Part shown: positions 42,545 to 60,025 of the stretch, one piece after another | Layout: every line of letters begins with the position of its first letter | Numbering within the stretch: the first letter of the stretch is position 1 | Origin: Variovorax paradoxus | Lineage (GTDB): Bacteria; Pseudomonadota; Gammaproteobacteria; Burkholderiales; Burkholderiaceae_C | DNA length: 64,000 nucleotides | Assembly (NCBI RefSeq): GCF_018614875.1 | Contig: NZ_JAGGNW010000031.1 | Location: 62,001 to 126,000 of the forward strand | Reading direction: 5' to 3' | The notes under the pieces: generated by a model | The model's input: only the letters and a program-made list of their open reading frames with translations | Databases searched by the model: none | Told to the model about the DNA's origin: nothing | Position numbers and translations under genes: made by a program

Positions 42545-45500
42545 TCAGGCCTGTGGTGCGCCTTGCCACCCGCCCCCCAGGGCCTTGTAGAGATTGACCA
42601 TGTTCACAGCCTCCTTGAGCTGCAGTTCGATCAGCTGCTGCTGCTCGGCATAAAGCTCGCGCTGGGCATCCTGGCTGGCAAAGTAGTCTTCCAGCCCGCT
42701 GCGAAAACGCGTGCGCGCAATGCTCGCCACCTTTTCCAGCGCCTGCACGCGAGCCTGCTGCGCCTCCAGCTGCGGGCGCAGGTGGTCGTCGGCGATCAGG
42801 GCATTGGCGGTCTCGCGAAACGCCATTTGCGCTGCGTGTTCGTAGGAGGCCATCGCCGCCGCCAGCCGCTCCTCGTTGGCCGTGATGTTGGCGGAGCGGC
42901 GGCCCCAGTCGAAGATCGGCAACGACACGCCCAGCACGCCGGCCCAGCTTCTGTTGCCGCTCGCCAGCAGCGTCGACAGCTCCCCGCTGACGCCGCCCGC
43001 GAGCGCCGTCAGCGAAATGGTCGGCAGCATCGCGGCCTTGGCCGCGCCGACGCCCGAGTTGGCGGCTTCGACGCGGGAATAGGCCGCCAGGAGATCAGGT
43101 CGCCGCTGCAGCAGGCTGGACGGCAGGCCCGCCGGCACCTGCGCCGTGGAGCGCTCCGGCCAGGGCCGGGCGCCGCCAGTGTCGGGTGACACCGGCTGGC
43201 CGACAAGCACGTTCAGCCACTGAATGTCCTGGGCGACGCGCATGCGGAATTCTTCCTGCTTCACGCGGGCGTTCTGCAGCAGCGACTGGGCGCGGTAGAC
43301 GTCGAGCTGCGCCGCGCCGCCAACCGCCTTGGCGCGGCCGACCATGTCGGCATTGGCAGCCAGGCTGGACTCGTTGGCATTGGCCAGGCCAAGCAAGGCA
43401 CGGTCGGCGCGCAGCGTGAGGTAGGCATTCGACACTTCTCCCACCAGGTTCATGCGCGCGGCCGCAAAGTCCTTGTCGCCCGCCTCGGCCAGGGAGCCGG
43501 TTTGCTGGGTCGCACTCTGTTGGCGGCCGAAGAAGTCGAGTTCGTACGAGGTCACGCCGGCCTGGATGTCGAAGCTGTTGGAAACCCGGCCGTCGGATGG
43601 CACGTTGCCGAGCGGGCTGAGCGACCCTTGCGTGGTGGTTTGCGCCCGCTGGGCATGGCCCGACAGGCCGAACTGCGGAAACAGCGAGGCGCGGCTGCCG
43701 GCATACACGGCCCGGGCTTCGCGGGCACGCGCGGCATAGGCGCGCAGGTCGCGGTTCTGCGTGAGAGCGGTTGCAATCAGCCCGCGCAGTTCGTCGTCCT
43801 GCACGAAGCCGCGCCAGTCCACGGGTTCCGCGTTGGACACCGTCTTGCCGGCCGGCCATTGCGCAGGCACCGTCAGATCGGGCTGCTTGAGCGGCGGCGT
43901 GAGATTGCATCCACTCACCACCAGCACGACGCATGTCGCCAGCACCAGCAGGAGCAGCCGCAGGAACAGGCGCACGAACCCCGCTCCCGGGGCGCCGAAG
44001 CCCGCACTCGCCAGCAACGCCGAAGCGGCCTGCCACGGCCGCACCTGAACCGCGACATGGCTCGGAGGCACATTGAACACGTGGCTCACCAGCTGCTCGC
44101 GCTGGGCCTCGGTGCCGGCGAACCGCAGTTCGGCACCGGCGGAGCTTCTGCCGGCCAGGCGGGCCGGGAGCCATCCCACGGGATCGACATAGACCTCCAG
44201 CGGCTGGCCCACGCGCAGGCGTTTGAGCGGGGCCTTGGCTTCCAGCAGCGCGCCGTCAACCGCGATGTTGACGAAGCGCGATTCGCTCTCGCCCGCCGCG
44301 GTGCGCACCCTGGTGCGCGCGCGCCACGGAAAGCGCTCTTCCTGCTCCGGCCGTGGCAGGTCGACGCAGGCGATGAGCGCGGCCAGGCAGAGGATGAGCG
44401 CAATGCCGGTCCACACGAGATTGAGCTCGTCGCCGGGTGTGAGCGCTTCGCCGCTCAGGGCAACCGATGCACCGCCGAACTGCAGCGCCACGAGCAGCCC
44501 GCCGAACACCGCGACCAGTTTCCAGTGCACGACGGTCTTGGTGCGGTCCAGCCCCTTGGCCGTGACCTTGAAGGGATGGCCGAAGGGGCGCACCATGGCG
44601 CTGACCAGCGTTCCGGTGACGGCCATGGCCGCCACCAGCTGGCTGACCTCGCTGAACACCGGCAGGCAGCGCCGCTGGCTGATCCAGTAGCTGTAGGCCC
44701 AGAACATCATGAGCGGCGGCAGCCCGAACGACGCAAAGGCCTGCGGCGTGGCATGGAACACCGAGACCCCGGCATACCAGTAGAGCGCGGGCGCCAGCAT
44801 GATCATGGCCATGAACGGCTTGCCGAGCCAGTGCAGCAGCCCGTGCAGGAAGTGCATCCGGGCCGAGAGGCTGTAGCCGCGGCCGCGCAGCGGGCCGTCG
44901 GGCAGCAGCGCGAGCTGCACCGTTCCCAGGCACCAGCGGCTGCGCTGGTTGATGTAGTCGATGATGCTCTCGGCCGACAAGCCGTTCGACAGCCGTTCGC
45001 CCAGCCAGCGGGTGATGTGGCCATGCCGCAGCAGCAGGTAGGTGGTGTGGATGTCTTCGCACACGCTGCCGACGGGGAAGCCGCCCGCGGCGGTGATCAG
45101 GTCGCGCCGCACGATGAAGGAAGTGCCCACGCAGAAAGCCGAGTCCGCGGCGTCCTTGGCGGGCTGCAGCACGTCGAAGAACACGCGCTGCTCGTCGACC
45201 CAGCTGCCGGTGGCGCGCAGGTTGTGCTGGATGGGGTCGGCGTTGTAATAGAACTGCGGCGTTTGCACCAGCCCCACCTTGCGGTCCGCGAACAGGCCCA
45301 GCATGCGGTAGACGATCTGCCGCTGCGGCGCAAAGTCGGCATCGAGCACCAGGATGTAGGGCGCATTGGTCACGCCCGCCGACAGCCGCAGGCCGTTGTT
45401 GAGGTTGCCGGCCTTGGCATGGCTGTTGTCGGGCCGGCGCGCATAGTGCACGCCCTTGCGCTCGCAATACTCGCGCAGCCAATCGCGCCGGGTGTCGTCA

Positions 45501-45955
45501 AGCACCCATACCTTCAGGTTCGGATAGTCGATGGCCTGCGCGGCGATGACGGTCTTTTCGAGCACGGCCAGTTCTTCGTTGTACGTGCAGATGAAGACGT
45601 CCACGGCCGGCACCTGCGTGCCGCGGCCGCGCAGCGCGGCTTCGCCCTGGTCGGCCAGCCGATGGTTGTCGCGGCGCCGCACCAGCATGTGGATGGACAT
45701 CAGCGTGTAGACGATGGCCGTCAGCTCGAAGCAGAGGAACACCCAGGCGAACAGGGTCTCGAAGCCGAGGTCCGAAGGCGGCATGGTGGCGACCACGCGC
45801 CAGACGGCATAGCGCATCAGCAGCAGCGCGGTCAGCGCGCCGAACAGCATGCGGTGGGACATGCGGTCGACCCGCCCCCATGTCATCAGGAGCAGCGCCA
45901 GGCCCGCAACAAGTGCGTTGAGCTGGAACTCCGGTGTGGCGATCAGGTGGGACAT
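42545..45955 (-). CDS. Fused BcsA-like polysaccharide synthase and TolC/NodT-type outer-membrane channel
   Basis: One uninterrupted 1136-residue frame. The N-terminal half is a membrane processive beta-glycosyltransferase (GT2): UDP-sugar Asp in DVFICTYNEE (about 118), DAD in LVLDADFAPQ (about 205), CED, and QRSRW (about 336), with membrane helices on both sides. A PilZ-like c-di-GMP domain follows (RFPWR, about 543; NIAVDGAL, with Ala where the motif usually has Ser). After a linker comes a membrane/lipobox segment (LLLLVLATCVVLVVSGC, Cys about 680) and a full OMF lipoprotein (about 455 residues, DWRGFVQDDELRGLIATAL, DFFGRQQSATQQ). This should make and export a glycan. A GTG at 43975 may start the channel separately. 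Confidence 0.88.
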   Translation of the reverse strand: MSHLIATPEFQLNALVAGLALLLMTWGRVDRMSHRMLFGALTALLLMRYAVWRVVATMPPSDLGFETLFAWVFLCFELTAIVYTLMSIHMLVRRRDNHRLADQGEAALRGRGTQVPAVDVFICTYNEELAVLEKTVIAAQAIDYPNLKVWVLDDTRRDWLREYCERKGVHYARRPDNSHAKAGNLNNGLRLSAGVTNAPYILVLDADFAPQRQIVYRMLGLFADRKVGLVQTPQFYYNADPIQHNLRATGSWVDEQRVFFDVLQPAKDAADSAFCVGTSFIVRRDLITAAGGFPVGSVCEDIHTTYLLLRHGHITRWLGERLSNGLSAESIIDYINQRSRWCLGTVQLALLPDGPLRGRGYSLSARMHFLHGLLHWLGKPFMAMIMLAPALYWYAGVSVFHATPQAFASFGLPPLMMFWAYSYWISQRRCLPVFSEVSQLVAAMAVTGTLVSAMVRPFGHPFKVTAKGLDRTKTVVHWKLVAVFGGLLVALQFGGASVALSGEALTPGDELNLVWTGIALILCLAALIACVDLPRPEQEERFPWRARTRVRTAAGESESRFVNIAVDGALLEAKAPLKRLRVGQPLEVYVDPVGWLPARLAGRSSAGAELRFAGTEAQREQLVSHVFNVPPSHVAVQVRPWQAASALLASAGFGAPGAGFVRLFLRLLLLVLATCVVLVVSGCNLTPPLKQPDLTVPAQWPAGKTVSNAEPVDWRGFVQDDELRGLIATALTQNRDLRAYAARAREARAVYAGSRASLFPQFGLSGHAQRAQTTTQGSLSPLGNVPSDGRVSNSFDIQAGVTSYELDFFGRQQSATQQTGSLAEAGDKDFAAARMNLVGEVSNAYLTLRADRALLGLANANESSLAANADMVGRAKAVGGAAQLDVYRAQSLLQNARVKQEEFRMRVAQDIQWLNVLVGQPVSPDTGGARPWPERSTAQVPAGLPSSLLQRRPDLLAAYSRVEAANSGVGAAKAAMLPTISLTALAGGVSGELSTLLASGNRSWAGVLGVSLPIFDWGRRSANITANEERLAAAMASYEHAAQMAFRETANALIADDHLRPQLEAQQARVQALEKVASIARTRFRSGLEDYFASQDAQRELYAEQQQLIELQLKEAVNMVNLYKALGGGWQGAPQA
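43973..43988 (-). promoter_or_regulatory. Possible internal ribosome binding site and GTG start for the channel half
   Basis: On the minus strand GGGAG (43988-43984) is followed by eight bases and GTG (43975-43973). Starting here gives a 476-residue protein opening (M)RLFLRLLLLVLATCVVL and then a perfect lipobox (VSGC), the normal architecture of a free OMF lipoprotein. Whether it is used in the cell is unknown. Confidence 0.45.
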
Positions 45956-47286
45956 GGTGACGTGGCTCCTGTTGCGGCGGTCTTGCCGGTGAAGGGGTTG
46001 AACCCCGTTGCGGCCAGCGCGATCCAGGCGGTTGCGCCCAAGTGTGGCCAGCGGTAGTAGTAAAAGTCGGCGCCGGTCGAGTCCGGGCCAATGGCGAGTC
46101 CGGTGGAAATGCGGGCGCTGGGCGTTGCGTAGTACAGGCCGTTGTCCGCGCGCTGCGAGGCCAGCAGCTGCCACAAGGCCTCGGGCGCCGCGCCCTTGCG
46201 CGCCACCAGGGTGGCGGCCGCCTGGGCGGTGCCCTCGGTCCATATGCCGTCCGGGCTGCGGGAGAAGCCGTAGCCTTCACCGAAGCGATGGTTCTTCTCC
46301 ACCCAATCGAGCCCCCGCATCCATGCGCAGGAACCCGCGGGCGCCGCCAGCAGCGGCCACAGCTGCGCATCCAGCCCCGAGCCATCCGTTGCAATGGTGG
46401 CGCCGTCTTCCTTGGTGCCGATGTTGAAGCGCTGCTGCGACGGGTTCCACATGCGGCCCACGAAGTCGAGCGCGGTGCGCGCCTGCTGGCGTTCCGCTTC
46501 GGCCTGCCCGCCGGCGCGCGCCGCCCAGGCGGCCGCCATGGCGATATCGATGTTGTGCTCGGTGGATTTCCAGGTCTGGGCGCGCTGCGCGTTGTCCCAG
46601 CCGTACCAGCCGCCGTTGTAGCCGTCGGGCGCGTTCCTGGCGCGCGTGCGCTGCTCGATCCAGCCGAGCAGCCTGCGCGCGCTTGCCAGATAGGCGGGCG
46701 ACGGCTCGGCCTCATTCAGGTTCAGCAGCAGCAAGGCGGCCCAGGCCACGTTGCCGGTGGCCGTGCTCACCTGGTACGCATCGGCGATCCATTGATTCTT
46801 GCCCGCATCCCAGCGCCCCGGCAGCGCGGCCTTTTCCTCGGTCATCGGGCCGGCGCGGTAGCCGTTGCGCACGCGCCCGTCGGCCACGTTCGGATCGCGT
46901 TCCACCGCGCGCACCACCGCGTCGCCGATGCGCCGGGCCGAGGCCGCGTCGCCGCAGGCCAGCAGCGCGATGCCGGCCAGTGCGTTGTCATAGGTGAAGG
47001 CGACGCCCGCGAGCGCGGGCTCCAGCGGCGTGCCCTGCCGGGGGTCGGCAAGGCGGTAGCTGGTGAGAAACAGCGGTCCGGAAGCCGCGCCCTTCTGGTC
47101 CTCCACAACCGCCCGCCGCAGCCCTTCGCAGCTTTGCCGGGCAAGCCCTTGTTGCGTGGCGCTGCCGGCTTGCGGGCCGGGTTGACGGCCAGACTGCTGG
47201 GCGACGGCCGCGGACATGGGCAAGGCCGAGGCCGCCAATGCGGCAACGCAGGACACCAGGGTCCGGGAAAAGGGGGAAACCGACAT
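45943..47286 (-). CDS. Secreted six-hairpin glycosidase-like protein of the exopolysaccharide operon
   Basis: A 447-residue exported protein. Its signal peptide (VSCVAALAASALPMSAAVAQ) is followed by an alpha-helical-barrel pattern typical of six-hairpin glycosidases: repeated helices with AYQVSTATGNVAWAALLLLN, GYNGGWYGWDN and GIWTEGTAQAAATL. I cannot assign a CAZy family. By analogy with BcsZ or alginate lyase in other operons it probably trims or clears the nascent polymer in the periplasm. Its stop overlaps the synthase gene start by 13 bases. Confidence 0.7.
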   Translation of the reverse strand: MSVSPFSRTLVSCVAALAASALPMSAAVAQQSGRQPGPQAGSATQQGLARQSCEGLRRAVVEDQKGAASGPLFLTSYRLADPRQGTPLEPALAGVAFTYDNALAGIALLACGDAASARRIGDAVVRAVERDPNVADGRVRNGYRAGPMTEEKAALPGRWDAGKNQWIADAYQVSTATGNVAWAALLLLNLNEAEPSPAYLASARRLLGWIEQRTRARNAPDGYNGGWYGWDNAQRAQTWKSTEHNIDIAMAAAWAARAGGQAEAERQQARTALDFVGRMWNPSQQRFNIGTKEDGATIATDGSGLDAQLWPLLAAPAGSCAWMRGLDWVEKNHRFGEGYGFSRSPDGIWTEGTAQAAATLVARKGAAPEALWQLLASQRADNGLYYATPSARISTGLAIGPDSTGADFYYYRWPHLGATAWIALAATGFNPFTGKTAATGATSPCPT

Positions 47287-47329
47287 GGCTCTGTTCCGAT
47301 GCGGGTGGTTGGTGCATTTCCGCCTGCGC

Positions 47330-48634
47330 TCAGGACCGGAGGCTGGCCGACACCACCTTACCGGGCGCGCACATGTTGGCGCCGCCATCCGGCGGAGCTT
47401 CCTGCGGCTCCTTGCCTTCGATGCGTGCCACTGCATAGATGGAGCCCTGCTCGGCATACGGGAACGGTACGCTGTAGGTACTCTGCAGGGCGTCCGAGGC
47501 CACGGGCAGCAACTGCTCCACGCGCGCCGGCACCGACTTGGCGGATTCACCGACCTTCACGTCGAGCACGGAACCAATCCCCAGGCGCTTGGCCACCCGC
47601 GCCGGAAACACCGCCACCACGCCGAGCCGGCTGCAGTCGGTCACCCGCACCAGCGAGGCACCCGCCGTGACGTATGCGCCTTCGGGTGCCAGCACGGAAT
47701 GAACCTGCCCCGCCTGGGACGCCTTGATTTCGTAGAAGGACAGCTTTTCCACCCGGCGGCGTTCCTCCTCCTCGAGATCCCTGACTTCCTTGAGCTGCTT
47801 GAAGATGGCGGTGGCGTCCTGCTGGGCGCGGCCGACGCTGTTGCGCAGCGCCTCGCGGCGGCTCGAGAGCGTCTGGAACAGGTTGCTGCCCCCGGTGCCC
47901 ACGAAGGCCCCCTGGCCGGCACTGGCCACCGTCTGGGCCTGCCCGGCAAACGACTGTTCCGCCACCGAGGCATTGGCGCGCGCCGTGTTCAGCTGCGCCA
48001 TGGATGCGTTCATGACCTGCTCGCTGATCGCTCCCTGTTCCAGCAAGGCCTGGTTGGTCCGCACCTTGGCCTCCTGCTCTTCCACCACGCTGTGCGCCAC
48101 GTCGCGCTGCCGCCGCGCGATCTGCCAGGCCTCCCAGGCCTGCGCCAGCGACGCCTCGCGGTGAACGCCCGCTTCCTGCCCGACAGACCTCATCTCCTGG
48201 TTGTCGGACTTGTACTGATTACCCAGCTGGGCCAACTGGCTTTGCAGTGCGAGGTGCTGGGACCTCAGGGTGGTGAGGATCTCCTGGCTGACGGTCGGGT
48301 TGCGCACCGTGGCCACGATGGTGCCGGGCTCCACCTTGTCGCGCGCATGCACCACCATCTGCGACACCACCCCGTTGATCGGCGAGGTGATCAGCCCCAC
48401 TGGCGCCTGCAGCACCGCGCGGGTGGCTTCCGATGACAGCAGCGGCTGGACCAGCGTCGCGACCATCAGCCACAGCACGAAGGCCAGCAGCGCATAGGCC
48501 GCCAGCTTGGGAATGAAGGCACCCGACTGCCGGCGCCGACAGCCACCACCGGAAACTCGACGGGCGCCCAAGGCACCCGCGACGCGCCGCTGGCTGTGGG
48601 AAAAGAAAACTGAAATCGGTTTTGACGCACGCAT
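47330..48634 (-). CDS. HlyD/BgsB-type membrane-fusion protein of the exopolysaccharide operon
   Basis: A 434-residue inner-membrane adaptor. A membrane helix (AAYALLAFVLWLMVATLVQPLL) is followed by a lipoyl/barrel-sandwich half (LQAPVGLITSPINGVVSQMVV), a long coiled coil (about 140-300) and the second sandwich half (YEIKASQAGQVHSVLAPEGAYV). Family knowledge: BgsB beside BgsA in Sinorhizobium mixed-linkage beta-glucan synthesis has this design. Together with the synthase and outer-membrane channel it would span the envelope. ATG 48634 is used; an upstream extension is Cys/Arg-rich and unlikely. Confidence 0.85.
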   Translation of the reverse strand: MRASKPISVFFSHSQRRVAGALGARRVSGGGCRRRQSGAFIPKLAAYALLAFVLWLMVATLVQPLLSSEATRAVLQAPVGLITSPINGVVSQMVVHARDKVEPGTIVATVRNPTVSQEILTTLRSQHLALQSQLAQLGNQYKSDNQEMRSVGQEAGVHREASLAQAWEAWQIARRQRDVAHSVVEEQEAKVRTNQALLEQGAISEQVMNASMAQLNTARANASVAEQSFAGQAQTVASAGQGAFVGTGGSNLFQTLSSRREALRNSVGRAQQDATAIFKQLKEVRDLEEEERRRVEKLSFYEIKASQAGQVHSVLAPEGAYVTAGASLVRVTDCSRLGVVAVFPARVAKRLGIGSVLDVKVGESAKSVPARVEQLLPVASDALQSTYSVPFPYAEQGSIYAVARIEGKEPQEAPPDGGANMCAPGKVVSASLRS

Positions 48635-54655: not shown

Positions 54656-55189
54656 TCAGTCATTAGCCTCAAGCCATCTGGCTGCGTGGCCGACTGCTCT
54701 CAAGTACCGCGTTTCGAACTCGACTTTCGTAATCTCGTCCATCTTTACTTCCAATGGTTGGGAGATACGCAGACCGCGCGCGGAGATTTTGTCGAGCAGC
54801 AAGCCGGCCGAGGTTACATCGCGCGGGACACCGATGAAACAGACATCCGGGTCATCGATTTCCATGTGGATAGCAACCGTCGCTCCCTTGCGGGCGAGCA
54901 TCTGTAGGTCCAACACCATGTTGCAAGAGAACTCTTTTAGAAGCTCGGCGTCGTCCACCGTCTTCCATGCGCCTAAAGCAGCTTGATAGAACTCAGCCTT
55001 ATCGAAAGCTCGGTCAAAGTAGCGAATCGTTTTCGTCGGAAGAATGCAGAAGCCGTCGAGGTCAAGCGAATCTGAAAGCTCGGATGCGATAACGCTGTCC
55101 GTGCTTGATTGGCGGATATGGCAGACCAAGGCTTCCAGATCATCGATACGCGCAATACGCACGAGGTCAGGCAGATTGTCGGAGTTCAT
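54656..55189 (-). CDS. Candidate immunity protein for the RHS toxin
   Basis: A 177-residue acidic cytosolic-looking protein (no signal, no membrane segment) of no recognised family. Its ATG overlaps the RHS stop by one base (TGATG), the typical position for an immunity gene following a polymorphic toxin. Codon use is less GC-biased than in the housekeeping genes, as often in acquired toxin tips. The immunity role is inferred from position and size only. Confidence 0.65.
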   Translation of the reverse strand: MNSDNLPDLVRIARIDDLEALVCHIRQSSTDSVIASELSDSLDLDGFCILPTKTIRYFDRAFDKAEFYQAALGAWKTVDDAELLKEFSCNMVLDLQMLARKGATVAIHMEIDDPDVCFIGVPRDVTSAGLLLDKISARGLRISQPLEVKMDEITKVEFETRYLRAVGHAARWLEAND

Positions 55190-58100
55190 CAGTATTTCAT
55201 CCTTGCGTCTTTTTTCTCGCCACCCTTGTCTCTCAACCGTCGCTCATCGCCCTTCTCGTGCTTGTCTTTCGTACTCTGCCTCTTTCCCTTTGTATGCCCA
55301 CTCTCTTCCTCTTCTGCATTGTCGCGATCCGAGGGCTTCTTTTTGCCCTTAGCCATCTGCATGATGAGATCGCTTGCTGACGTAACGATTGCTTTGCAGC
55401 CGTTCATCACCATTCCGGGTAACCCTGCGTCTGAAAGCAGTGGCTTCGGGATGCTTGGCATCGGAATGAGTGGTCGATCTTCCCCAGGGGACTCGGGATC
55501 GACCCAGGGCGAAGGTCCGTACTCGCATGCCATCGCCGCCCCACCGGCAATGGGTCGGCATCCGTAGAGCCCCTTCGGGTCGCTGTAGCTCAACGGATTG
55601 CCACCGACATATCCGAAGCGATTCCACCCTCCATCAAGCCCTATAGGGTCGCCTTGCGTATAACGACCGACTCTCGGGTCGTAGGTTCGGAATCCGTTGT
55701 AGAACAACCCCGACTCCTCATCCGCATACTGCCCCGGATAGCGCAGGTTGAACTTCACCTCGGCTATGTTGGTCGTGCCCGGGCTCGGTGTCGTCTCCGT
55801 GTTGGCAAACCGGTTCTTCGCAATCGTCGGCTTGTCCTCCCCGAAGGCGCTGTAGCTCCACTGCCAGACGGCTTGGCCGCTGTCGTTGCTCAGGCGCCTC
55901 GGCGTGTTCAGGTGGTCGCTGTGCACCGCATAGGTGGCCCCGTTGATCATGGCTGCGATCGGCATCGGTCCGTTCGCCGTCGGCAGGTAGATGTAGCTGG
56001 CCTGCCCGGCGCTGTTCGCGCCGCCGCTGCCCGTCTCCGAGATCAGCGTGCCGTTGTCGTCGTAGACATAGGCATAGCCCAGCTGCTCGGCCTGGTTGGT
56101 TGTCGGATTCCACAATTTGGTGAAGAACGCGATCAGGCTCTGCATGAAGCCCGGATCGGCTTCATCGCCTTGGCCCGGCGGGTACAGCGGCTCAGTCTTG
56201 AACACGCGCTGGCCCAGCGCGTTGTGCGCGTAGCGCGTGGTCGGGCTCACATCGGTGGCGCCGGTGGTGGCCGCGGCCAGGCGGCCCTCGGCGTCGTAGG
56301 TATAGCTCCTGAGGCCATCGCTCACGAGGTCGCCGTTGGCGTTGTAGCCGTAGGTGACGCTGGTGCTGCTGGCGCCGTTGATGCTCTGGATGAAGCCGGT
56401 CAGCTGGTTGCTACTGGCGCCCACGCTGTAGGTACGGCTGGTGCTCTGGCCGTTGAGGTCTCTTGTGCTGCTGCTTCGGTTGCCGTTGGCGTCGTAGCCG
56501 AAGCCGGCGGTGCTGCCGGTGGCATTGAAGCCGGTGATGCGCCCCACGGCGTTGTAGCCGACGGTCCAAGTAATGTCGCTGGCGGCGATGGTGCTGTGCG
56601 TGGGATCGGCGTCGCCCGGTACGTAGAGGTTCTGCGTCAGGCTGGTGATGCGACCGGCCGCGTTGTAGACATAGCTGCTGAACTCGGTGGCGGTCATGCG
56701 GCCGGCGGTGTCGTAGCTGCGGCTGGCTGCAAGCGCTGGGCTGGCGAAGGCCCAGGTCCAGGCGGTGGGCTGGCCCAGCGGGTTCCAGGCGATGCCTGTG
56801 ACCAGCGGGGTACCGTTCCAGTTCAGCCCCGAGAGGCGGCCCGTGCTGTCGTACAGGTGCGCGAGGGTGGCGCCGCTCGGATAGCCGATGCTCGCGAGGG
56901 TCCCGTTCGGGTTGTAGCTGTAGCTGACCTGCTGGACGCTGCCATTGGCCAGGGTCTGCTTCTTCAGGGTCACACGACCGAAGCCGTCGCGGGTGTACTC
57001 GGTGGTGCCGCTGCGGTCGACGATCTCCGAGAGGTAGCCTCGGCTGTTGGCCGTGAGGTCGTAGCGCAGGGTGGTGGTCTTGCCGTCGGCGAAGACCAGA
57101 CTGGTGGGGCGGCTCAGGGCATCGCGGGTGATGGTGGTGGCCTGGCCGAGAGCGTCGGTGATCTGGCTCGGAAGGCCCAGGGCGTCGTACTGGGTGCTGG
57201 TGCCGCCGGTGTCGGCACTGGTCTCGGCGGCGGCGTTCCCCTGGGCATCGCGCGCGTAGGTGGTGGCCACGCCCTTGAAGTCCTTGGCTTCGGTGACGGC
57301 ATCGAGGGCGTTGTACTTGAGGGTGGCGGTGGCGTTGGCCGCATCGGTCACGGCCTTGACGCGGCGCAGCCCGTCCAGGCCGTACTGGGTGCTCTGGTTC
57401 AGGCCGTTGGTCTGGGTGATCAGTTCGCCGTTGGCGTCATAGCCGAAGGAGCTGGTCTGGTTGGGGCCTTCGGTCTGGGCGGACAGCCGGTTGATGGCGT
57501 TGATGGTGCGCGCGGCGTTCCAGGCGACGCTGCCGGCGCTGTCCTTGATCTGCTCGGCAGTGCGGTTGCCCATGCCGTCCAGGGTGTAGCTACCAGACTC
57601 GCCGCGGTTGTTGCTCCAGCCGGTCAGGCGGTGGGCGGCGTCGTAGCTGTAGGTGAGGACCAGGCCGGTGGGCAAGGACACCGTCTCGACCGTGCCGTAG
57701 GGCTTGTAGGTCAGGACCGTGGTCTGGCCGCCGACGGTCTGGGTCAAGAGGCGGTCGCGCGGGTCGTAGGTGTAGGTGGTGACGAGGCCGTTGGGGGCGG
57801 TCGAACTCGCGACGCGGTTGGCGTTGTCGTAGGTGTAGCTGGTGACATGGCCCAGGGCGTTGATCGAAGTCAGGACGTTGCCCCGGAGGTCGTAGGTGTA
57901 GCTGGTGACGGCGCCATTGGGGTCGGTGGCGGTGGCTACCAGCTGCTGGGTGTTGTAGGTCCACTGCCAGAGCTGGGCCTGGTTGGTGGCGGTGTCGGTG
58001 ACGGTCTTGGTCAGTGTGTTGCCCAAGGCGTCGTAGGCGTAGGCGGTGGTGCGGCCAGCTTCGGTCACCAATGCGGGCAGCGAGAAGGTCGGGTGCCATT

Positions 58101-59754
58101 GGGTGGTCACCGTGCGGGCATCAGGAGTGCCGGAGGCGTGGACCACGGTGGTGGGCAGGCGGCGGGCCACGTCCCAGGTCGTTGTGGTGACCACGCCCTT
58201 GAAATCGGTCTCCGAAGTGATCAGGCCGTTGGCATCCTGTACGCGGCTGGCGGCATCGCTCTTACCTTCGCCCGAGGGCAGCGAGCCGCCAGTGACGGCG
58301 AGCTTGCCCAGCGTGGTGCCATAGCTGTAGCTGCGGGTCGTGCCCAACGGATCGACCACCGTGGCGGAGCTTAAAGACGGGTAGCTGACTTGATAGCTGT
58401 CCACGGAGCCCGCGAGCTGAGTGCTGATCGCGCGGCCCGTGGTGTCGTAGGCGAACGTGCCCCAGCGGACACCGGCTTCATCGAAGATGCCGGTCAGTGC
58501 CTGGGGGAACGAAGCGTTCTCGTAGACGAAGCTGCGGGCCTTGCCGTCGGGGTACAGGACCGAGACCAAGCGGCCGGAACCGTCGTAGGCGTAGGAAATG
58601 ACGCGCGCATCCGGCGTCGTGACGGTGGTCAGTTGGCCTGCGCCGTTGTATGCAAACGCCAAGGTACGGCCGAAGCTGTTCGTGACGGAGGCCAGTTGGC
58701 CAGCGCTGTTGTAGGTGTACGCAGCGACCCAGCCGTTGCGATCCGCTTCGGTCTGCAGTTTGCCGGAGCCGTCGAAGGTCAGTGTGGTGTCGTCATCGGC
58801 GCGGTGGTAGGTCCAGGCGCCAGAGGAGAGTTGTGTCAGCGTATCTGTGCCGTTACCGGTGCTCCAGGTGGTACCGCTGGCAGCCTTGCCAAAAGTCCGC
58901 ACATAGCCTTCGCCGGCGGTAATGGCCGCGATCGAGGGAGCCGTGCTGGGCGTGGCGACGAGCCTAGTGCCGAAGTTGTGCGACCAGACTTGACCAAGTG
59001 GATTGCCAACCCGGGTCGAATCGCCCGCCCAACTGCTGCGGTAGCTGCGGGTGAAAGACAAGGCACCGGGGCCCGAATCTGACCAGTCGGTTTCGCTGCG
59101 GTATTTCTCTGCGGTCGCTGGCGAGATGGGATAGGGTGTGCTTTCACCGTCACGCGGACGCTGGCACATAGGTGGCTGCTCGGGGCGAAGGCAGTAGGAA
59201 CTGGTTGAGTCTTCCTGGAAGTTCCGACTGCACAGGCAGTTTCCGCTACCCGTCAGCGTACTGTCGGCGGGGCATATCTTGTCATAGGCAGTACGCAAAC
59301 TGCCTGCCCCCCCTGATGTGGTTCCATCCTTCCAGACGTAATGGAACGGGCAGTACGAATTGCCAACAGAACCTGCTGGAGGGCCGGAACTGGTAACAGT
59401 TGCAGGGTATGAGCTGTAGAACTGTTGATAGAGCGCGAGGGCATCTGCGCATGCCTCCTCCCTGGTATAGCGAAATGCGTCATTCGGGTAGTAACCGGTG
59501 GGGGAGGTTCCCGCCCACTTGGGAACAGCTGTCGACCAAATCGTTGCGCCGGCAGCATGAGCAACACATAAGAGTAGCAGTGCGATACACAAATGGAAGA
59601 GAGATGCGAGACCAGTCTTGGAAGGTGGGCGAGCGGGGTGATTGCTCGAGTCCTCGCAGGTCCTTTTTGAGCATCGAACCGAACAGTTAGCTACCCACTC
59701 CCACAGCGTAGTGAACAGAATTAGACCTTCACAGGCCTTTCTCGCCTCGCTCAT
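55189..59754 (-). CDS. RHS-repeat polymorphic toxin with Sec signal
   Basis: A 1521-residue RHS protein. ATG 59754 has an AGGGAG RBS six bases upstream; an in-frame ATG at 59769 is weaker. A hydrophobic signal-like stretch (ASLFHLCIALLLLCVAHAAG, about 50-70) implies Sec export, and no PAAR or VgrG part exists. Then come a DUF6531-like region (SFTRSYRSSWAGDS), about twenty YD/RHS repeats, the core-associated block GLFYNGFRTYDPRVGRY and the boundary motif SDPKGL. The variable tail of about 120 residues ends highly charged (KGKRQSTKDKHEKGDERR) and is the presumed toxin; I do not recognise it. It is followed by a candidate immunity gene. Confidence 0.85.
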   Translation of the reverse strand: MSEARKACEGLILFTTLWEWVANCSVRCSKRTCEDSSNHPARPPSKTGLASLFHLCIALLLLCVAHAAGATIWSTAVPKWAGTSPTGYYPNDAFRYTREEACADALALYQQFYSSYPATVTSSGPPAGSVGNSYCPFHYVWKDGTTSGGAGSLRTAYDKICPADSTLTGSGNCLCSRNFQEDSTSSYCLRPEQPPMCQRPRDGESTPYPISPATAEKYRSETDWSDSGPGALSFTRSYRSSWAGDSTRVGNPLGQVWSHNFGTRLVATPSTAPSIAAITAGEGYVRTFGKAASGTTWSTGNGTDTLTQLSSGAWTYHRADDDTTLTFDGSGKLQTEADRNGWVAAYTYNSAGQLASVTNSFGRTLAFAYNGAGQLTTVTTPDARVISYAYDGSGRLVSVLYPDGKARSFVYENASFPQALTGIFDEAGVRWGTFAYDTTGRAISTQLAGSVDSYQVSYPSLSSATVVDPLGTTRSYSYGTTLGKLAVTGGSLPSGEGKSDAASRVQDANGLITSETDFKGVVTTTTWDVARRLPTTVVHASGTPDARTVTTQWHPTFSLPALVTEAGRTTAYAYDALGNTLTKTVTDTATNQAQLWQWTYNTQQLVATATDPNGAVTSYTYDLRGNVLTSINALGHVTSYTYDNANRVASSTAPNGLVTTYTYDPRDRLLTQTVGGQTTVLTYKPYGTVETVSLPTGLVLTYSYDAAHRLTGWSNNRGESGSYTLDGMGNRTAEQIKDSAGSVAWNAARTINAINRLSAQTEGPNQTSSFGYDANGELITQTNGLNQSTQYGLDGLRRVKAVTDAANATATLKYNALDAVTEAKDFKGVATTYARDAQGNAAAETSADTGGTSTQYDALGLPSQITDALGQATTITRDALSRPTSLVFADGKTTTLRYDLTANSRGYLSEIVDRSGTTEYTRDGFGRVTLKKQTLANGSVQQVSYSYNPNGTLASIGYPSGATLAHLYDSTGRLSGLNWNGTPLVTGIAWNPLGQPTAWTWAFASPALAASRSYDTAGRMTATEFSSYVYNAAGRITSLTQNLYVPGDADPTHSTIAASDITWTVGYNAVGRITGFNATGSTAGFGYDANGNRSSSTRDLNGQSTSRTYSVGASSNQLTGFIQSINGASSTSVTYGYNANGDLVSDGLRSYTYDAEGRLAAATTGATDVSPTTRYAHNALGQRVFKTEPLYPPGQGDEADPGFMQSLIAFFTKLWNPTTNQAEQLGYAYVYDDNGTLISETGSGGANSAGQASYIYLPTANGPMPIAAMINGATYAVHSDHLNTPRRLSNDSGQAVWQWSYSAFGEDKPTIAKNRFANTETTPSPGTTNIAEVKFNLRYPGQYADEESGLFYNGFRTYDPRVGRYTQGDPIGLDGGWNRFGYVGGNPLSYSDPKGLYGCRPIAGGAAMACEYGPSPWVDPESPGEDRPLIPMPSIPKPLLSDAGLPGMVMNGCKAIVTSASDLIMQMAKGKKKPSDRDNAEEEESGHTKGKRQSTKDKHEKGDERRLRDKGGEKKDARMKY

Positions 59755-60025
59755 CGCACTCTCCCTCATGTCTTTCCGTTTGCGTGTCTGAACATCCACG
59801 CCCACTCTTTGCGGCCAGAGTGATTATTTTTTGACCGGCCGACCCCCTCGGTGACGCGCACCGTGACGTGGCACTTTGTACAACTTGTTTCAGATTAGTC
59901 GAAAGACAGCAGTCCGCCAACGACAGTTCAACTGGATCGCACTTCCAAGCCCAAAATGAATATGAAAGTTCGCCAGCGTTGTTGTCGCGGCACGACTGGC
60001 CGGCCGGCCTTCGCTATACGACTGA

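Follow-up and report, generated by a model that had tools for sequence, protein, structure and literature searches.

Can a polysaccharide synthase and the outer membrane channel through which its product would leave the cell be encoded by one gene, and if so, does the resulting chain stay in one piece? The question is raised by a locus of Variovorax paradoxus, lying in a 64,000-nucleotide stretch of contig NZ_JAGGNW010000031.1 (positions 62,001 to 126,000; the window hereafter, whose own numbering is used throughout), in which a first-pass annotation had described an HlyD-type adaptor, a glycosidase-like protein and a single open frame joining a BcsA-like synthase to a TolC-like channel. That annotation had also proposed that these parts form a single trans-envelope machine for synthesis and export. 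The fusion is old in Variovorax, and its product is probably a polyprotein, which signal peptidase II would be expected to cut into a synthase and an outer membrane lipoprotein.

A synthase and an outer membrane channel in one open frame

Three closely spaced genes on the minus strand make up the locus, in the order adaptor, glycosidase-like protein and synthase-channel fusion. The HlyD-type periplasmic adaptor (47330..48634, ATG at 48634, 434 amino acids (aa)) has one N-terminal membrane helix by hydropathy (aa 44-62) and matches Pfam HlyD_3 with 44.6 bits (cut-off 22.2), and the putatively periplasmic (alpha/alpha)6-barrel glycosidase-like protein (45943..47286, ATG at 47286, 447 aa) has a signal-like stretch at its N-terminus. 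The fusion gene (42545..45955) encodes 1136 aa plus the stop and starts with an ATG at 45955, overlapping the end of the glycosidase-like gene at 45943.

The synthase half contains a glycosyltransferase family 2 (GT2) catalytic core at about aa 116-345 (44921..45610, on the minus strand like every feature given here), with DD, DAD, ED and QRSRW motifs, and a gating loop, FKVTAKG. Both the D,D,D,QxxRW pattern and the loop, which are of the cellulose synthase type, are retained across the 40 synthase rows of alignment A2 (40 synthase and 38 channel rows; like the 59 rows of alignment A1, these were selected from the window and the 79 related loci described below). A PilZ-type domain follows (aa 538-627, 44075..44344), with a weak Pfam match (23.8 bits against a cut-off of 22.5), and the remainder, from aa 683 to 1136 (42548..43909), is a NodT/OprM-type outer membrane factor (OMF), assigned through NCBIfam outer_NodT (TIGR01845, 298.6 bits against a cut-off of 210.05) and Foldseek. 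Pfam finds Glycos_transf_2 (E 1.8e-18) and OEP (138 bits, cut-off 22) in the same frame. For the predicted model of the whole fusion (predicted local distance difference test (pLDDT) 79.5, predicted template modelling score (pTM) 0.57), the best Foldseek matches are BcsA structures and OprM-type channels, the channel half matching OprM (1wp1) with E 4.6e-24. The modelling suggested in the first-pass annotation thus likens one half to BcsA and the other to OprM, and its description of the gene, at the same coordinates, as one open frame with GT2, PilZ-type and complete NodT/OprM-type parts is upheld, as is the presence of all four components from adaptor to TolC-like exit, the name glycosidase-like being derived from a predicted model.

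Conservation of the fusion in Variovorax

Strong matches to the fusion were found in at least 34 of 101 Variovorax genomes, the window's included (seven candidates were scored per genome), and none of these 35 matches has a stop at the junction. The closest relatives, 95% identical, belong to Variovorax beijingensis and V. paradoxus. When 49 Variovorax loci were fetched and both strands were checked, all 49 proved to be fused and to contain a lipobox; the set includes the window's own locus and duplicates that arise where one genome is present in two collections, and holds 33 distinct junctions. Over the 16 linker codons, variable sites number 8, 4 and 16 at codon positions 1, 2 and 3, and over 400 codons of the channel half they number 129, 85 and 325, as counted in 19 of 37 sequences, those left out including a distant Variovorax group and sequences cut by contig ends. 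Because the frame recurs in 34 other Variovorax matches and substitutions across the junction show the codon pattern expected of translated DNA, it is neither a product of chance nor an error. A chance open frame in GC-rich DNA was considered as an explanation and was ruled out by this recurrence and by the codon-position bias. As for a sequencing or assembly error that took out a stop codon, the split relatives outside Variovorax do have a stop at that place, but the junction is open in all 34 of the other Variovorax matches, with 33 distinct sequences, and we regard such an error as practically negligible. The doubt voiced in the first-pass annotation, that all relatives might share a stop here and the open frame be an assembly error, is thereby removed.

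Relatives and origin of the fusion

Among 79 related loci, 60 are split and 19 are fused, the latter being all 17 Variovorax loci and two from Pseudomonas (L058 and L059). The order adaptor, glycosidase-like protein, synthase and channel is retained, the glycosidase-like gene and a channel gene or half being present in 79 of 79 loci and an adaptor homologue lying upstream in 77, with the two misses (L107 and L109) located on short contigs. The search for gene order and for fused and split versions in relatives, also proposed at the outset, has thus returned one common order in both states. The split loci come from Pseudomonas, Cupriavidus, Burkholderia, Pandoraea, Ralstonia, Dyella, Rhodanobacter and Frateuria; one split copy, in Pseudomonas sp. 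TH10 (L114, 3819-7396), has a synthase frame that ends early, at 486 aa.

In a tree of 80 synthase halves (the window's and those of the 79 loci), three changes are required to explain the fused state, and because both Pseudomonas fusions lie among split relatives, three independent fusions have apparently taken place. Since the fusion apparently arose three times, there is good genetic evidence that synthase and channel work together. In the genus of L058, 398 genomes gave a match to both synthase and channel in at least 18, of which one, L058's own, is fused and 17 are split (two candidates per genome were scored here and in the family-wide sample, and presence counts from such genome searches are lower bounds). 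L058 lacks about 70-75 bases found in its neighbours, corresponding to the end of the synthase, the stop, the start of the channel and the beginning of its signal, and it still has the lipobox together with the final portion of the hydrophobic stretch. In Variovorax the junction is, by eye, near the point that corresponds to the C-terminus of the synthases of Frateuria and Dyella, and therefore nothing long seems to have been inserted; judged in this way, the fusion would consist of a complete synthase joined to a complete channel precursor, including its signal. The family-wide sample gave at least 3 of 399 genomes, all from the window's genus, a count that is uninformative because the system also occurs in other genera, which we believe to share the window's family.

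A probable internal lipoprotein signal at the junction

The signal of a bacterial lipoprotein ends in a lipobox, the cysteine of which is lipidated, signal peptidase II cuts just before that cysteine, and an aspartate immediately after it bears on sorting by the Asp-after-Cys rule. A segment resembling such a signal lies between the PilZ-type domain and the channel, where the predicted model and hydropathy indicate an internal hydrophobic helix or lipoprotein signal (aa 659-682, 43910..43981). Within it, the stretch aa 663-681 has a hydropathy of 2.76, the highest of the whole protein (the next segment reaches 2.69), and the segment ends in V-S-G-C. The cysteine of this lipobox, C683 (43907..43909), with the predicted signal peptidase II cut just on its N-terminal side, is matched in the alignment by the first residue of mature OprM (1wp1), and a further OprM entry, 4y1k, is by its title palmitoylated. 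The lipobox cysteine is present in all 14 fusions of A2, followed in each by Asn or Ser, and of the 38 channel rows only L112 is without it, as a result of a chosen start 3' of the Cys, LAAC being found there. The full lipoprotein pattern (a hydrophobic stretch, then a [LVT][STG]GC lipobox, with no Asp after the Cys) occurs in 49 of 49 Variovorax loci. Because the fusions keep the lipoprotein signal and its cysteine and 60 of the 79 loci have separate genes, a precursor that is cut is the simpler reading. Of the single trans-envelope machine proposed at the outset, the four components stand, the TolC-like exit among them, and the single uncut chain is disfavored by these same features.

We postulate, as the likelier course of events, that the locus encodes a four-part exporter of a linear, cellulose-like polysaccharide in which synthase and channel would come from one polyprotein gene whose product is cut. 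The synthase half, with its GT2 core, gating loop and PilZ-type domain, would polymerise the chain and push it across the inner membrane, the adaptor would connect to the NodT/OprM-type channel across the periplasm, and trimming or proofreading of the chain might fall to the glycosidase-like protein. The channel's own lipoprotein signal, placed behind the cytoplasmic PilZ domain, would enter the inner membrane and be lipidated at C683, and the cut by signal peptidase II would free the channel, which would then go to the outer membrane as related channels do, a sorting expected because the residue after the Cys is Asn or Ser and not Asp. After the cut the signal would remain attached to the synthase and give it one more membrane helix. 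In this scheme the cutting, the assembly of the complex, the identity of the polymer and the role of the glycosidase-like protein are inferred.

Alternative explanations

Several observations weigh against a cut precursor with a working channel, and the rival accounts draw on them to different degrees. One is that, at the threshold used, 67 of the 101 Variovorax genomes were without a match. The fused signal is, by eye, longer and more hydrophobic than those of separate channels, and therefore the segment may have turned into a plain anchor. An uncut chain, in which a synthase anchored in the inner membrane is covalently tied to the outer membrane channel, would couple synthesis and export across the envelope, and it agrees with the open frame of all 35 Variovorax matches and with a segment hydrophobic enough, at 2.76, for a stable membrane anchor. 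However, the lipobox cysteine is kept in all 49 loci, and the roughly 38 residues between that cysteine and the channel helix starting at aa 721 of the model look too short to span the gap between the inner membrane and an OprM-like body, judging by general envelope geometry; moreover, an OprM-like trimer would presumably bind three synthases per channel. We hold this arrangement to be very unlikely. More can be said for separate initiation, in which translation of the channel would begin inside the frame, near 43975, with the read-through fusion as a minor or additional product. A candidate GTG start (43973..43975) lies in the window with GGAG 8 bases upstream (43984-43987), 10 of the 33 distinct Variovorax junctions, the window's among them, combine a start with a Shine-Dalgarno-like motif, and a like test is passed about as often by separate channel genes (19 of 60), vs 34 of 680 in-frame start codons in the synthase core; the Pseudomonas fusion L059 also has a Met close before the signal. 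On the other side, the start position is not conserved (codon 661 is GTG in 12, ATG in 4, GCG in 2 and GTA in 1 of 19 sequences), no start codon of L018 is so placed that a signal of 14-36 aa would result, and in L058 the channel's own start is deleted. Separate initiation is accordingly given some weight, although we consider it rather unlikely.

The fused channel half could also be a decaying passenger, another OMF of the genome being the real exit. Nine further OMF-like matches are found in the genome, and two Variovorax loci depart from the rule: in L181 (G024:C2:528000-538000) the frame is broken at about aa 800, within the channel half, its synthase, glycosidase-like and adaptor matches being without visible break, and in L180 (G095:C66:54000-66000) all that is left of the channel is a C-terminal portion (aa 883-1133), with no adaptor, glycosidase-like or synthase match within the 12 kb read. 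Nevertheless, 34 of the 35 Variovorax matches are unbroken over the matched part (that of G065 ends at a contig end and that of G004 at aa 1084), variation in the channel half is biased towards third codon positions, and all 79 related loci have a channel gene or half behind the synthase, so that a passenger seems to us more improbable still than an uncut chain. A last point against the scheme concerns its regulation by cyclic di-GMP (c-di-GMP). The PilZ signature [DN]xSxxG is present in 28 of 28 non-Variovorax rows of A2 vs none of the 12 Variovorax rows, where the serine is lost; the window reads NIAVDG at this position and has RxxxR without [DN]xSxxG, two motifs that PilZ receptors of c-di-GMP combine, RxxxR being patchy in Variovorax and in the other rows alike. 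Because the signature serine is lost, regulation by c-di-GMP is doubtful in Variovorax, and the lineage may have given up or altered this control.

The polymer and the glycosidase-like protein

Two rhizobial proteins regarded as BgsA share 34-35% identity with the synthase half, and two BcsA proteins share 24-29%. The BgsA rows are identified by their replicon (pSymB or an R. etli plasmid) and by an HlyD-GT2 gene pair, their records giving no such name, and in the kinship tree the long branches of the BgsA and BcsA rows meet. The likening to BgsA made in the first-pass annotation is borne out to this extent. The synthase remains below the cut-off of NCBIfam CelA (TIGR03030, 344.6 bits vs 699.1), and the window's genome contains no other strong CelA match, the one hit being at 29.5 bits. 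In the same genome, which is 89.6% complete, BcsB (PF03170) gave no match in a search whose control found E. coli BcsB. The synthase groups with copies on Agrobacterium and Nitrobacter plasmids, with 44-45% identity. In these two loci (L170 and L173) it stands beside a glycosidase-like gene, recorded as a hypothetical protein, and an HlyD-type gene, and no channel gene is annotated adjacent to it, in a plasmid gene table that is incomplete. The polymer is probably a beta-glucan, as far as kinship of the synthase can indicate.

The glycosidase-like protein matches no Pfam or NCBIfam family. Its AlphaFold2 model (pLDDT 89.1) is an (alpha/alpha)6 barrel, which aligns with dextran dextrinase 9ju0 (VIA Z 30.7, root mean square deviation (rmsd) 2.8, 330 aligned), the MmpH hydrolase 7qsj (Z 30.5, rmsd 2.9, 309 aligned) and cellobiose 2-epimerase 4z4l (Z 29.2, rmsd 3.4, 334 aligned), three rows that are near-tied, within about 1 in Z, in a list that need not cover every family. 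The model thus places the protein only at the level of the (alpha/alpha)6 superfamily, which comprises glycosidases and sugar epimerases. Pfam Glyco_hydro_8, the family of GH8 and BcsZ, has no match in the window protein and one at E 0.075 among 59 relatives; an endo-1,4-glucanase of P. putida (4q2b) appears at Foldseek rank 21 (TM 0.47/0.59), with a fold of the same broad kind. Two family names were tried and rejected, GH127 and C5-epimerase, for which Pfam matches are scattered and weak (16 of 59 relatives, best 2.1e-4, and 12 of 59, best 0.0068, respectively), and a profile of the protein searched against PDB sequences gave nothing firm (best E 0.023). A homologue on a plasmid of Azospirillum sp. 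B510 (L174, 6860-8158) has no synthase or HlyD gene annotated within the surrounding 15 kb. Elsewhere in the window, a gene at 55189-59805 encodes a 1538-aa RHS-repeat protein, in which nine RHS repeat stretches were matched by Pfam.

Comparison with known systems

The fusion is unusual, conserved in Variovorax and assembled from known parts. No description of the operon, of the fusion or of a polyprotein precedent was seen in the titles and abstract starts of the open-licence PMC matches listed. In Bradyrhizobium, fbcH is said to encode a cytochrome b-c1 precursor cut by signal peptidase at an internal signal, so that two envelope proteins arise from one chain; there the enzyme is reportedly signal peptidase I and the products belong to the inner membrane and periplasm, whereas the Variovorax fusion has a type II lipoprotein signal. 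An unusual bacterial polyprotein is predicted, with an internal lipoprotein signal behind a cytoplasmic domain, and C683 together with globomycin would offer a simple handle on this reading in a soil genus.

With the OprM/NodT drug-efflux factors the channel shares its fold and its N-terminus, C683 corresponding to OprM residue 1, but it differs from them in belonging to a polysaccharide operon and in being fused behind a synthase. The likeness to the BcsA/BcsB/BcsC/BcsZ system of cellulose export lies in the GT2 core, the gating loop, the PilZ-type domain and a periplasmic (alpha/alpha)6-barrel protein, and the difference in a NodT-type channel that replaces BcsC in the operon and in the lack of a BcsB match in the genome. 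BgsA/BgsB of Sinorhizobium and Rhizobium, which make a mixed-linkage beta-glucan with beta-1,3 and beta-1,4 links, resemble the locus in an HlyD-like gene followed by a BcsA-like GT2 gene, with adaptors 21% identical, and in the published accounts BgsA is described as having a short C-terminal c-di-GMP-binding tail in place of PilZ (PMC9495663, PMC5567048). Here, by contrast, a PilZ match is obtained, the putative BgsA of R. etli giving none, and the two rhizobial loci show no annotated glycosidase-like or channel neighbour, in a plasmid gene table that is incomplete.

The closest published model is the cyanobacterial XcsA/XcsB/XcsC-TolC system, whose proteins, TolC included, are not encoded in one operon, and for which the model is described as being without experimental proof (PMC12430437). 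In terms of domain and fold content, both systems combine a PilZ-containing cellulose-synthase-like enzyme with an HlyD-like protein, an endoglucanase or glycosidase-like protein and a TolC-like channel, without BcsB. A point of difference is that the glycosidase-like protein described here matches no curated family. As evidence that synthase and channel work together, the fusion bears on the TolC-type exit proposed for XcsA-like synthases, which in cyanobacteria is unconfirmed and lacks the support of a shared operon (PMC12430437); in Variovorax all four parts are united in one operon and synthase and channel are fused, a fusion of which the available part of the Xcs account makes no mention.

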